Shown here piece after piece: positions 53,096 to 57,035 of a stretch of DNA of 57,244 nt. The translations under genes and the position numbers were made by a program. The DNA is taken from positions 1 to 57,244 of the forward strand of contig JBDRVQ010000009.1 in the NCBI GenBank assembly GCA_039801905.1, written 5' to 3'. Every line of letters starts with the position of its first letter. The stretch's first letter is position 1. The notes under the pieces were generated by a model. That model did not search any database. It saw nothing but the letters and a program-made list of their open reading frames with translations, and had not been told where the DNA came from. The DNA comes from a candidate division WOR-3 bacterium (GTDB taxonomy: Bacteria; Hydrothermota; Tepidihabitantia; Tepidihabitantales; JBDRVQ01).

Positions 53096-53124
53096 TTGAC
53101 AATTGTTTACCTTATTATTATCAT
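53096..53124 (+). promoter_or_regulatory. Promoter of the cstA-arsA operon
   Basis: TTGACA (53096-53101), 17-base spacer, TATCAT (53119-53124). Six bases separate it from ATG 53131 with no Shine-Dalgarno site, so leaderless translation is expected. Only weak AT-rich sequence lies between it and the gene at 52909. Confidence 0.75.
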
Positions 53125-53130
53125 AAAAAG

Positions 53131-54795
53131 ATGAACTCGGTATTCGTGATAATTTTGGGGATAATTGTTTATTATCTGGGAGTTCAAATCTATGCCAAAT
53201 TCTACGACCAAAAGGTAATCAAGACCGACCCGAAAAGGGCAACTCCCGCCCGGCTCTATGCGGACGGGGTTGACTTTTTACCAACATCCAGAAATATCCT
53301 CTTTGGCTATCAGTTTAAGTCAATCGCCGGCGCGGCACCAGTTTTAGGTCCAATCATCGCTATCAAGTGGGGTTGGCTGCCTGCTCTTTTATGGATTCTT
53401 TTGGGTACATTCTTTATCGGTTGGATTCAGGATTACACCTCAGCGATTGTCTCAATGCGCTCCGATGGGATGACCTTTGGCGGTATCTCTTATTCTTTGA
53501 TCTCTTCCCGGGCAAGGGTGATTTTACTATCTTTTATCTACTTCTATCTTTTGCTTATCGCCAGTGCCTTCACCAATGTCGTTGCGGTCTTTCTTTCTAA
53601 GAATCCGAATATCCCTTTGTCAATTATCTTTTTGGCTTTCGCGGGTATTTTAGTTGGCTTTCTCATCTATTATGGTCGGTTAAACCTGATTCTTGTGACA
53701 ATTGTTGGCCTTTTCATCTTTTACCTTTCGCTTTTTCTGGGAGCAAAAATCCCCTTGGCTTTAAATAACCCCTTTGCCAATAAGATGCTCTGGTTAGCCT
53801 TTGCCTTAATCTTTTCTTTTTTCGGTTCGGTCTTACCCATTTGGGTCTTTGTCCAACCAATCAATTATTTAAGTTTTTATATCATCCTCTTTGGGATGGT
53901 GGGAGCGGTTTTGGGGATTTTTATCGGTCGTCCCAATTTTTCTGCTCCACCCTTTACCAATTTTCAGGCAGAAGGTTTACCCCTCTGGCCTATGCTTTTT
54001 GTCACCATCGCCTGCGGTGCCATTTCTGGTTGGCACTCCAATGTCTCCTCCACCGGAACATCAAGGCAATTGGAAAAGGAGACCGATACCCGAGCCGTGA
54101 CCGCTGGGGCGATGTTTTTAGAGATGATTTTGGCTTTAATCGCCTTGATTATCGTCAGTATTACTAAGGCCCGGGGGAGTTGGGATTCCTTATTCGGTGA
54201 GGGGTTAGATTTGGTCTTCTCTTATCTCGGATTGCCGAAGGGTTGGGGGAAATCTTACGGACCGGTGATGATTGTTATCTTAGCCATCACCATTCTCCAT
54301 TTGGTAATTCGCTTTATGCGGATTGCCACCAATGAACTTTTGGGTAAGAAAATTCCTGCTCTTAAAGACCCAGTCTTAGGAACAGTGATTGCCATCATCT
54401 TCTCTTTCGTCTTAGTTTATACCGGTAGTTTCAATTACATCTGGGTTTTATTCGGTTCTGCCAATCAGTTGATGGCCAGTTTAGCCCTTTTAATCGCTTC
54501 GGTCTGGCTTGTCTCCCAAAGAAAACCAACCGCTTTCACATTTTATCCAATGGTCTTTATGTATCTGACGACGATGAGCGCTTTAATCTATACGAGCATT
54601 TCGGTTCTGAGGCAGGCGATAACCGGCTTGGATTTAACCGGTAAACCACTGCCCACAAGTTCAGTGATTGGCAACTATTTTGCTGGCCTTATCGGTTTAA
54701 TCTTATTTTTTGCCGCCCTCATTTTGGCTTATGATGGCTTAAAGGCTTATATAAGATATGGGAGGGGAAATGGAAAAGAAGAAGGGAATTTTTAA
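53131..54795 (+). CDS. cstA: CstA-family transporter (carbon starvation protein A)
   Basis: A 554-residue membrane protein with about fourteen or more hydrophobic segments. GYQFKSIAGAAPVLGPIIA near residue 57, WIQDYTSAIVSMRSDGMT near 98 and SNVSSTGTSRQLEKETD near 307 are strong CstA signatures. E. coli CstA, about 700 residues, takes up pyruvate and peptides during starvation; this shorter form may do the same. It heads a four-gene operon: the next gene starts inside its last codons. No two-component regulator is present. Confidence 0.93.
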   Translation: MNSVFVIILGIIVYYLGVQIYAKFYDQKVIKTDPKRATPARLYADGVDFLPTSRNILFGYQFKSIAGAAPVLGPIIAIKWGWLPALLWILLGTFFIGWIQDYTSAIVSMRSDGMTFGGISYSLISSRARVILLSFIYFYLLLIASAFTNVVAVFLSKNPNIPLSIIFLAFAGILVGFLIYYGRLNLILVTIVGLFIFYLSLFLGAKIPLALNNPFANKMLWLAFALIFSFFGSVLPIWVFVQPINYLSFYIILFGMVGAVLGIFIGRPNFSAPPFTNFQAEGLPLWPMLFVTIACGAISGWHSNVSSTGTSRQLEKETDTRAVTAGAMFLEMILALIALIIVSITKARGSWDSLFGEGLDLVFSYLGLPKGWGKSYGPVMIVILAITILHLVIRFMRIATNELLGKKIPALKDPVLGTVIAIIFSFVLVYTGSFNYIWVLFGSANQLMASLALLIASVWLVSQRKPTAFTFYPMVFMYLTTMSALIYTSISVLRQAITGLDLTGKPLPTSSVIGNYFAGLIGLILFFAALILAYDGLKAYIRYGRGNGKEEGNF

Positions 54796-55030
54796 GTCCT
54801 TAAAGGAGTTTATTTATGGGATGGCGGCTCACGATACCGCCCGTTTTGCCTTAAAGACCAGAGGCAGTATGGAGCATCTCTTTATCTTAATCACGATGGG
54901 GGATATGCTGGGCGTTCCGATTTTACCTCCTTATTATTCTTTAAGGCTTCTTCCCTATTGCATCCCCCAGATTGCCACTTGGAAACGAAGGATGCTTCGG
55001 GAAAAGGATTTCACCGATACCTTGGCTTAA
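54770..55030 (+). CDS. Small conserved-looking protein between CstA and ArsA-type ATPases
   Basis: An 86-residue protein. FIYGMAAHDTARFALKTR near the N-terminus and HLFILITMGDMLGVPILPP in the middle give one amphipathic and one hydrophobic segment, with a basic C-terminus (ATWKRRMLREKDF). It may lie at the membrane. I recall a small-protein family (named cory-CC-star) reported beside CstA-like and ArsA-like genes, but this one has a single Cys, so I do not assign it. ATG 54770 follows GGGAGGGG; it overlaps cstA by 26 bases and abuts the next start. Confidence 0.7.
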   Translation: MEKKKGIFKSLKEFIYGMAAHDTARFALKTRGSMEHLFILITMGDMLGVPILPPYYSLRLLPYCIPQIATWKRRMLREKDFTDTLA

Positions 55031-56008
55031 ATGACCTTAAAGGAGTCTTTTCTAAATAATCCGAATCGCAAGTATATTATGTTTGGGGGTAAGGGCGGTT
55101 TGGGTAAGACAACCTTCTCCGCGGCGACTGCCTTCTGGTTGGCAAAGAGGGGTTTTAAGGTCTTAATCTTTTCGGTTGATCCCCAGGCATCCCTTTCCGA
55201 TATCTTCCAAAGGGATATCTTTGGTAAGGATGCCCAAGAGATTATCCCCAATCTCTTTGCCCAGGAGATTGATGCCGATAGAAGGATTAAGGAGTATCAA
55301 GATGAGATAAGGAATAAGATTCGGGAGAAGTACGGTTTGGAGGAAATTCCCGAAGAGATTGAAAGTTATATTCAGGCGGCATCCGCGGAACCGGCGATGG
55401 AGGAGAGTGCCATCTTTGATGCGGTGGTGGATATCGTTAACACCACCGATTTTGATTACTACATCTACGATTTAGTTCCCTTAGGTCATGCCCTATATTA
55501 TCTGGCGATGAGTTCTATCTATGACCAATGGATAAATAAGATTACCTCTTTAAGGGAGGAGATGCAAAGATACGAGAAGGTTATTGCGAAGATGAAAAGC
55601 GAAGAGGTGAAGGAAGAAGATGAGATTTTACAGGAGTTAGAATACATTAAGAGACGAATCAATCTCGCCTCCAAGATCTTTACCGATAAAGAGAAGACCG
55701 CCTTCTTCTTTGTTCTCACCCCGGAGGAGATGAGTATTATTGATACGGAAAAAGCAGCCAATTTATTCTCCCGTTACGGCGTGCCGATAACCGGTTTTAT
55801 CGTCAATCGGGTCTTACCACAGGAATTAAAAAAAGGTAATATTCCAGAATATTTGAAAAACCGCATTATTGCCCAAGAGAGACCTTTAGCGAAAATAAGA
55901 GAGAAATTCGGGAAAGAGGTCTTGGGTTGGATTCCAGAATTGGAGCGGGACATTACCGGCTTAGAGATGATTGAAAGGATGGCAAGAATAATGTTTGGCG
56001 ATGATTAA
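55031..56008 (+). CDS. ArsA/GET3-family ATPase, first paralogue
   Basis: A 325-residue ATPase of the ArsA/Get3 class, which act as dimers in metalloid export or tail-anchored protein delivery. P-loop FGGKGGLGKTT is near residue 18 and SVDPQASLSDIF is the switch I region (usually STDPAHSLSD). The later DTAPTGH-type motif reads YDLVPLGHALYYL, so TAPT is lost while GH remains. No metal-binding Cys cluster of ArsA is seen. ATG directly follows the TAA of the small gene. The pairing with the next gene suggests a heterodimer. Confidence 0.88.
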   Translation: MTLKESFLNNPNRKYIMFGGKGGLGKTTFSAATAFWLAKRGFKVLIFSVDPQASLSDIFQRDIFGKDAQEIIPNLFAQEIDADRRIKEYQDEIRNKIREKYGLEEIPEEIESYIQAASAEPAMEESAIFDAVVDIVNTTDFDYYIYDLVPLGHALYYLAMSSIYDQWINKITSLREEMQRYEKVIAKMKSEEVKEEDEILQELEYIKRRINLASKIFTDKEKTAFFFVLTPEEMSIIDTEKAANLFSRYGVPITGFIVNRVLPQELKKGNIPEYLKNRIIAQERPLAKIREKFGKEVLGWIPELERDITGLEMIERMARIMFGDD

Positions 56009-56975
56009 AAAAGGTCTGAGTGATTTCTTTAATCAAAATCCCAATTTGAAATACCTCTTTTTTGGTGGAAAAGGGGGTGTTGGGAAAACAGTCCTGGCAG
56101 GAATTACCGCCCTTTACCTCTCGGAAAAGGGGAAGAGGGTCCTTTTGGTTTCCACCAATCCGGTTCATAGCCTCTCGGGTCTTTTAAACGAAGATGTCTT
56201 CGGCCGGGAGAAAAAGGTTTCGCAGACCAACCTCTTTGCCTTAGAGATTGACACCAAGGATGTGATCTTGAAAAAGAAGAATGAGATCAAGGAGAAGATT
56301 GAATGGTTTTTGCGCTTTGCCGATATCACCGGGCAGAAGACTGAAGATTTTATTGAATCGGCAACGATGAATCCGGCATTTGAAGAGTCCGCGATGTTTG
56401 AGAAGATGGTTGATTTGATGTTTGAGGATAAATACGAAATCTATGTCTTTGATACCGCACCGACCGCTAATGCGAGAAGACTACTTGGGATGTCAAAGGT
56501 CTATACCTTATGGGTGGAGAAGATGCTGGCAAGTCGAAAGGAAGCGGAGGAGTTGCGAAAGAAATTGACATTTACCAAAAAGGAAGAGAAAGACCCACTT
56601 TTGACCTATCTCCTTTCCTTTAAGGAGCGGATCGAACGGGTCCACCAACTTTTAACCAATCCTTCTCTCACCGCCTTCTTCTTTGTCACTCTACCTGAGG
56701 CATTACCGATTGCCGTGATTAGGCGTTTTATCGGTTGGTTTAAGGATTTTGGCATTCCGGTTGGGGGGGTGATTGTCAATCGGGTGATTGATAAGAAGCA
56801 AGTTAAAGAGGATGCACCGGAATTTGTCTTGAACCGGATAACAATGCAAGAGAGATACCTTAATGAGATAAACTCTTCCTTTGAAAATGTCTTAGGTATT
56901 TTACCAGAGATGGCAAATGAGATTCGGGGGGTTGATAAGTTAAAGGAGGCGATGACTTATCTCTTTTCCCATTGA
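56001..56975 (+). CDS. ArsA/GET3-family ATPase, second paralogue
   Basis: A 324-residue partner of the preceding ATPase. P-loop FGGKGGVGKTV is near residue 21. Switch I reads STNPVHSLSGLL, with Asn for the usual Asp, while the later motif FDTAPTANARRLL keeps DTAPT but lacks GH. These losses are complementary to those of its neighbour. I start at ATG 56001 (overlap ATGATTAA with the upstream stop); a TTG at 55995 is also in frame. The protein is soluble, with a mixed helical insert near residue 190 that could grip a client. Confidence 0.88.
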   Translation: MIKKGLSDFFNQNPNLKYLFFGGKGGVGKTVLAGITALYLSEKGKRVLLVSTNPVHSLSGLLNEDVFGREKKVSQTNLFALEIDTKDVILKKKNEIKEKIEWFLRFADITGQKTEDFIESATMNPAFEESAMFEKMVDLMFEDKYEIYVFDTAPTANARRLLGMSKVYTLWVEKMLASRKEAEELRKKLTFTKKEEKDPLLTYLLSFKERIERVHQLLTNPSLTAFFFVTLPEALPIAVIRRFIGWFKDFGIPVGGVIVNRVIDKKQVKEDAPEFVLNRITMQERYLNEINSSFENVLGILPEMANEIRGVDKLKEAMTYLFSH

Positions 56976-56999
56976 CAAATTATTTTTTTAATGTATACT
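56972..56999 (+). promoter_or_regulatory. Promoter of the gene at 57036
   Basis: TTGACA (56972-56977) overlapping the arsA stop, 16-base spacer, TATACT (56994-56999). The leader of about 30 bases carries AAAGGAGGGG before ATG 57036. Confidence 0.8.
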
Positions 57000-57035
57000 A
57001 CTATGTAATAGGGTGAAAACCCTAAAGGAGGGGTT

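Follow-up and report, generated by a model that had tools for sequence, protein, structure and literature searches.

Why is a CstA-family transporter encoded in one tight operon with a small membrane protein and two ATPases of the ArsA/Get3 fold? CstA tends to be seen as nothing more than an importer of pyruvate or peptides, and the question is raised by a locus at positions 53,131 to 56,975 of a 57,244-nucleotide stretch of contig JBDRVQ010000009.1 from a candidate division WOR-3 bacterium; this whole stretch is called the window below. Our results show that the operon is real, widespread and functionally coupled, and that its small protein (CstX) and its two ATPases (A1 and A2) accompany one branch of CstA transporters. 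The operon has been recognised since 2010, and the lopsided ATPase pair, in which only A1 keeps the catalytic aspartate, and its tie to one CstA branch appear to be undescribed. The features of the locus are as follows.

53131..54795, plus strand: cstA, gene for a CstA-family transporter of 554 amino acids, characterised by Pfam PF02554, trees, AlphaFold2, Foldseek against the PDB and residue comparison
54770..55030, plus strand: CstX gene (ATG at 54770), small basic membrane protein of 86 amino acids, distantly related to the cory-CC-star family NF041419
55031..56008, plus strand: A1 gene, ArsA/Get3-fold ATPase, PF02374 and TIGR00345 above cut-off
56001..56975, plus strand: A2 gene (ATG at 56001), ArsA/Get3-fold ATPase, PF02374 and TIGR00345 above cut-off
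53096..53124, plus strand: weak candidate promoter, sigma-70-like, TTGACA-17-TATCAT, 11/12 consensus matches

The operon and its published relatives

The four genes and their coordinates stand as read in the initial annotation, and every junction overlaps or abuts: cstA and the CstX gene share 26 bases, A1 begins 1 base past the CstX stop (zero gap), and A1 and A2 overlap by 8 bases. The operon is also without ars genes, as had been said. In the whole genome, A1 and A2 are the sole ArsA-family members over the cut-off, and the CstA is likewise the only one. The candidate promoter stops 6 bases short of the cstA ATG, so the cstA messenger RNA may be leaderless. The evidence for this promoter is weak because the number of 11/12-type matches in the region is about that of shuffled sequence (9 observed vs 8.0 +/- 3.1). 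A second 11/12 sigma-70-like promoter lies at 56972-56999, with its first hexamer reaching into the A2 stop codon; it may serve the gene at 57013.

The idea that the ATPases act on the transporter is sound, though already published, and the system is not unrecognised, as was first claimed: the operon, the absence of ars genes and the energising idea are all found in the passages of Castillo & Saier 2010 consulted here (PMC2963123). These passages list 26 CstA-ArsA associations, 24 with CstX and 0 with ars genes, and describe similar trees and components that coevolve. The proposal made there is that ArsA energises CstA and that CstX links the two; adjacent ArsA pairs were noted in two organisms, and the ATPases were thought to be possible homodimers. 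The window operon resembles the CstA-CstX-(CstY)-ArsA systems of these passages in gene set, in lacking ars genes and in the energising hypothesis, and it holds a CstA, a CstX of the ~90-amino-acid type with a single transmembrane segment, and single-domain ArsA proteins of ~330 amino acids. It differs in that a heterodimer is proposed here, whereas homodimers were suggested there. The same passages do not report an invariant D-to-N change in the second ATPase, a restriction to a single CstA clade, lost CstA residues, or a relation to cory-CC-star and its RCC end. A literature search found no other paper naming both CstX and CstA, no paper naming cory-CC-star and no experiment on the CstA-CstX-ArsA operon.

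Coupling of the module to one clade of CstA

Gene order was surveyed in 80 genome loci encoding A1 relatives, and in a small number from genomes related to the window's. CstX lay upstream of A1 in 78 of 81 loci, spread over many phyla, and A2 lay downstream in 77 of 81; the loci with no CstX or A2 beside A1 were all at or near contig ends. In 55 loci a CstA gene preceded the module on the same strand. In 16 genomes no CstA was seen at the locus, and a substitute transporter was not seen there either, as the scanned neighbours were unrelated and 15 of these 16 genomes have a CstA elsewhere.

Co-occurrence across genomes gave the same picture. Among 201 Chloroflexota genomes CstX was found in 25, CstA in 28 and A1 in 26, with A1 and CstA coinciding in 25 (p ~1e-27); an ArsA-like match of any strength was present in 164 of the 201. 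The second phylum analysed, that of G071 (the genome of Desulfobacterales locus L078), comprised 198 genomes, 99 with a CstA, which in 20 of them was clade-type, defined as at least 43% identity to the window CstA. Here A1 was encoded in 19 of the 20 genomes with a clade-type CstA and in 0 of the 79 with another CstA (p ~2e-19), with one miss on each side: G369, where the CstA is truncated by a contig end, and G071, where CstA was not found. Within 61 genomes, the window's own and its relatives, CstA occurred in 27 and CstX in only 3, and these three carry the window's CstA and the two CstAs closest to it (80% and 66%). The CstX-A1-A2 module therefore follows one kind of CstA. The functional coupling of the four proteins suggested by the initial annotation is thus strongly supported by gene order and co-occurrence across genomes; the order recurs in other genomes, and the ATPases are not found equally often beside unrelated genes.

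The split was also evident in trees, with long branches and midpoint rooting as caveats. The 66 CstAs from module-bearing genomes, ten of them not adjacent to the module in the assembly, formed one clade (Shimodaira-Hasegawa-like approximate likelihood ratio test, 100), here named type II. In seven of these ten cases, 4 kilobases or more of sequence upstream at the module locus are without a CstA. All 19 CstAs from genomes without the module, E. coli CstA included, fell outside the clade, a pattern that takes one change on the tree and was matched by 0 of 500 shuffles; a bootstrapped tree with more outsiders showed the same split (100/100). Since the module is patchy in the window's class, horizontal transfer of the CstX-A1-A2 unit is suggested. 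A search for type II CstX on plasmids found it in 0 of 72,556 records.

The window CstA is a clear family member (PF02554, 412.6 bits vs a cut-off of 27, E 3.8e-123). Its description as shortened was misleading, because E. coli CstA (701 amino acids) is the long one, and 550-600 amino acids are usual in the clade and in uncoupled relatives. An AlphaFold2 model (predicted local distance difference test, pLDDT, 90; predicted template modelling score 0.90) matched the LeuT/APC-fold transporters BasC, AdiC, NRAMP and SLC6 in a Foldseek comparison with the PDB (probability 1.00), and also NKCC; a sequence search returned no solved structure for any CstA.

Comparison of the 66 type II CstAs with the 19 others pointed to four sites in this fold. 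Residues H91, R279, D280 and D488 of E. coli CstA correspond to Y60, I244, N245 and H390 in the window CstA, and the type II residues at these sites are mostly Y/F, I/V/Y, N and Q/H/N/Y, respectively. BtsT and further uncoupled CstAs keep H, R, D and D, and the highly divergent CstAs of Parabacteroides, Deinococcus, Azospirillum and Lactococcus deviate at some of the four. Position 390 lies mid-helix in the model (helix 372-404). E. coli CstA requires a proton gradient (PMC7730263), and the window CstA differs from proton-driven CstA and BtsT in being without all four conserved residues; the loss of a membrane acid is what would be expected if proton coupling had been abandoned. Pyruvate or peptide uptake, as initially assumed, can therefore not be transferred to type II, which has lost residues conserved in known pyruvate transporters.

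Two further proteins recur next to these operons. One, of ~125 amino acids, adjoins many type II operons and has an N-terminal CxxC, a thioredoxin-like YPxFIV...GWD end and no Pfam family (L059:4870-5253, L083:5218-5610, L020:3260-3643, L031:8014-8388 on the minus strand, and ~18 more loci); it had no match in the window's genome. The other is a tetratricopeptide-repeat protein whose N-terminus is hydrophobic; it is encoded after A2 in 13 loci, most of them from Chloroflexota (e.g. L021:8076-8699).

An asymmetric ATPase pair and a small membrane protein

A1 and A2 share ~36% identity, and their nearest solved relatives are the archaeal Get3-type ATPases 3ug6 and 3zq6. Window A1 has the deviant Walker A KGGLGKT, a switch I with the catalytic aspartate (SVDPQASLSD) and the switch II DLVPLGHALYYL, while window A2 has the deviant Walker A KGGVGKT, a switch I with asparagine at the catalytic position (STNPVHSLS) and the switch II DTAPTANARRLL. 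This asymmetry is invariant. The switch-I aspartate was present in 82 of 82 A1 sequences (VDPQAS, or TDPQAS in the distant loci L129 and L130), together with the leucine-containing Walker A KGGLGKT where the sequence is complete and the altered switch II of the DLVPLGHALYYL type; asparagine replaced it in 75 of 75 A2 sequences (TNPVHS, or LNPVHS in L129 and L130), with a switch II of the DTAPTANARRLL type. It is retained in homologues of only ~42% identity, and the A2 asparagine aligns onto the catalytic aspartate of archaeal Get3.

The role of the switch-I aspartate in Get3 (D57 in yeast) is to place the attacking water (PMC10248533). When it is changed to asparagine, TRC40/Get3 is regarded as ATPase-deficient and keeps a constitutive hold on its client (PMC6633398). 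As judged from these motifs, A2 is predicted to bind ATP without hydrolysing it. Both subunits would bind ATP, since the signature lysine of the deviant Walker A is present in each, and the natural reading is a putative A1-A2 heterodimer in which one site hydrolyses ATP and the other does not. The pair has the fold, the deviant Walker A and the switch regions in common with Get3/TRC40 and the archaeal Get3 proteins. Get3, however, is a homodimer with a CXXC, whereas A1 and A2 come from two diverged genes, have one catalytic aspartate replaced and are without the zinc-binding CXXC (0 of 82 A1 and 0 of 75 A2). No cysteine at all is present in window A1 and A2, nor in most homologues.

CstX is, as described initially, a basic protein of 86 residues (14 K+R vs 8 D+E) with a hydrophobic segment, which peaks at about residues 34-55. 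Its score against cory-CC-star NF041419 is 34.6 bits, below the cut-off of 80, and it ends in DTLA with no Cys-Cys. In an alignment of CstX sequences 70 of 71 rows matched NF041419; the odd row (L079:4688-4975) is a piece of CstA, which leaves the conclusions unaffected. CstX is thus homologous to cory-CC-star, though outside the family as drawn. Within its hydrophobic part there are polar residues as well as a PP turn, and few stretches of the operon are as well conserved. The CstX model (pLDDT 70, helices 2-43 and 55-75) had no fold match in the PDB and is too uncertain for structural use. A second, diverged copy (CstX') was found in 43 of 81 loci, often ahead of CstX, and can stay beside CstA when the module sits elsewhere (L095:3372-3596; L097:536-766, minus strand); the window operon has a single CstX.

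Small partners of CstA transporters are known from E. coli, where the CstA-YbdD and BtsT-YjiX pairs, like the window operon, combine a transporter of this family with a small protein; in E. coli this partner is needed for uptake, and deletion of ybdD leaves pyruvate uptake at 20% of the wild-type level (PMC5847655). The E. coli pairs differ from the window operon in that pyruvate uptake is proton-driven and has no ArsA-type ATPase. An RCC C-terminus is common to YbdD, YjiX and the cory-CC-star small proteins and is not found in CstX. CstX was also considered as a YbdD homologue and rejected, as no CstX matched PF04328 and the hhalign probability was 0.7%. In E. coli (L131:1910-5280) and Rahnella (L140:3402-6804) the P-loop GTPase gene yjiA comes after btsT-yjiX, an order that, with the RCC-ended small protein, parallels CstA-CstX-ArsA.

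A cousin with one ATPase is carried by two annotated records, those of Cytobacillus spongiae (NZ_CP089998) and Pseudochrobactrum algeriensis (NZ_CP075356). Here CstA, cory-CC-star and ArsA are encoded in a row, so that, as in the window, a transporter, a small protein of the same superfamily and an ArsA-fold ATPase stand together. These systems differ in that the ATPase is canonical (STDPAHNL, DTAPTGHT), the small protein ends in RCC, and the CstAs keep H, R, D and D and sit in another part of the tree. The changes in CstA, small protein and ATPase therefore go together in type II and do not come from having an ArsA per se. CstA-family transporters seem to have been tied repeatedly to a small partner and sometimes to a P-loop nucleoside triphosphatase.

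A proposed complex and its alternatives

We propose that the four gene products form one membrane complex, in which CstX would be a small membrane subunit of CstA that gives the ATPases their docking site. A1 and A2 would be an obligate heterodimer that binds ATP in both subunits and hydrolyses it only at the A1 site, so that each round of opening and closing of the dimer would take one hydrolysis event. This cycle would drive or license a conformational change of CstA, with ATP partly or wholly replacing the proton gradient used by the E. coli protein. In its general form, with CstX docking the dimer on CstA and hydrolysis in A1 driving or licensing the transporter, we give this proposal an even chance of being right. 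Its strongest version, a new kind of primary active transport by a LeuT-fold secondary transporter that has lost its ion-coupling residues and is powered by a CstX-docked ArsA-type heterodimer with one working and one permanently dead site, is doubtful.

Several observations weigh against this proposal. In G071, a chromosome-level genome, CstX-A1-A2 is present (L078:5639-7968) with no detectable CstA. The residue loss in CstA happened once, so that only one event connects it with the ATPase pair; it could signal a new substrate instead, and a substrate change would explain the lost residues equally well. A general rule that an ArsA ATPase replaces the coupling residues was rejected, as the one-ATPase CstAs keep all four. 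This last point would suit regulation, in which A1-A2 would act as an energy sensor whose ATP/ADP state turns the transporter on or off via CstX, with transport staying ion-driven; a dead site suits a sensor or switch, and btsT-yjiX in E. coli and Rahnella is likewise followed by a gene for a P-loop protein, yjiA. Type II CstA has, however, lost its apparent coupling residues, which a mere switch does not predict, and we consider regulation unlikely.

Possibly, A1-A2 is instead a dedicated Get3-like targeting factor, which would cover the hydrophobic segment of CstX (and CstX') and bring it to the membrane next to CstA. A crude measure of hydrophobicity in the client-binding insert gave the same value as in archaeal Get3 and did not discriminate for or against such a role. 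The archaeal Get3-type proteins are the nearest solved relatives, the CstX segment lies ~30 residues from the C-terminus, and CstX stays with A1-A2 even where CstA is elsewhere; since D-to-N Get3 holds its client constitutively (PMC6633398), A2 could be the holding subunit. We nevertheless regard targeting as rather unlikely, as the zinc CXXC of Get3 is absent from all 157 sequences, the CstX segment with its polar residues, PP turn and high conservation is unlike a generic tail anchor, and pure delivery leaves the change in the CstA core residues unexplained. Far less probable is a pump for arsenite or another oxyanion, to which the ArsA-family membership of A1 and A2 might point. In the ArsAB arsenite pump the transporter is driven by an ArsA ATPase whose two halves are unlike, whereas the window ATPases are single-domain products of two genes, have no cysteine site and accompany an unrelated transporter family in an operon without ars genes. 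E. coli ArsA needs C113, C172 and C422, according to the passages of Castillo & Saier consulted (PMC2963123); neither the two domains nor these cysteines are found in A1 or A2, and most homologues are cysteine-free too.

The lopsided ATPase pair and the type II clade make the 2010 hypothesis directly testable. Exact residues for this are offered by the asparagine that A2 carries by nature and by the membrane aspartate that type II CstA has lost, and D488 of E. coli CstA becomes a candidate for proton coupling. If the ATPases do run this one CstA clade, LeuT-fold transporters would be convertible to ATP-powered or ATP-gated machines, much as ArsB is by ArsA.

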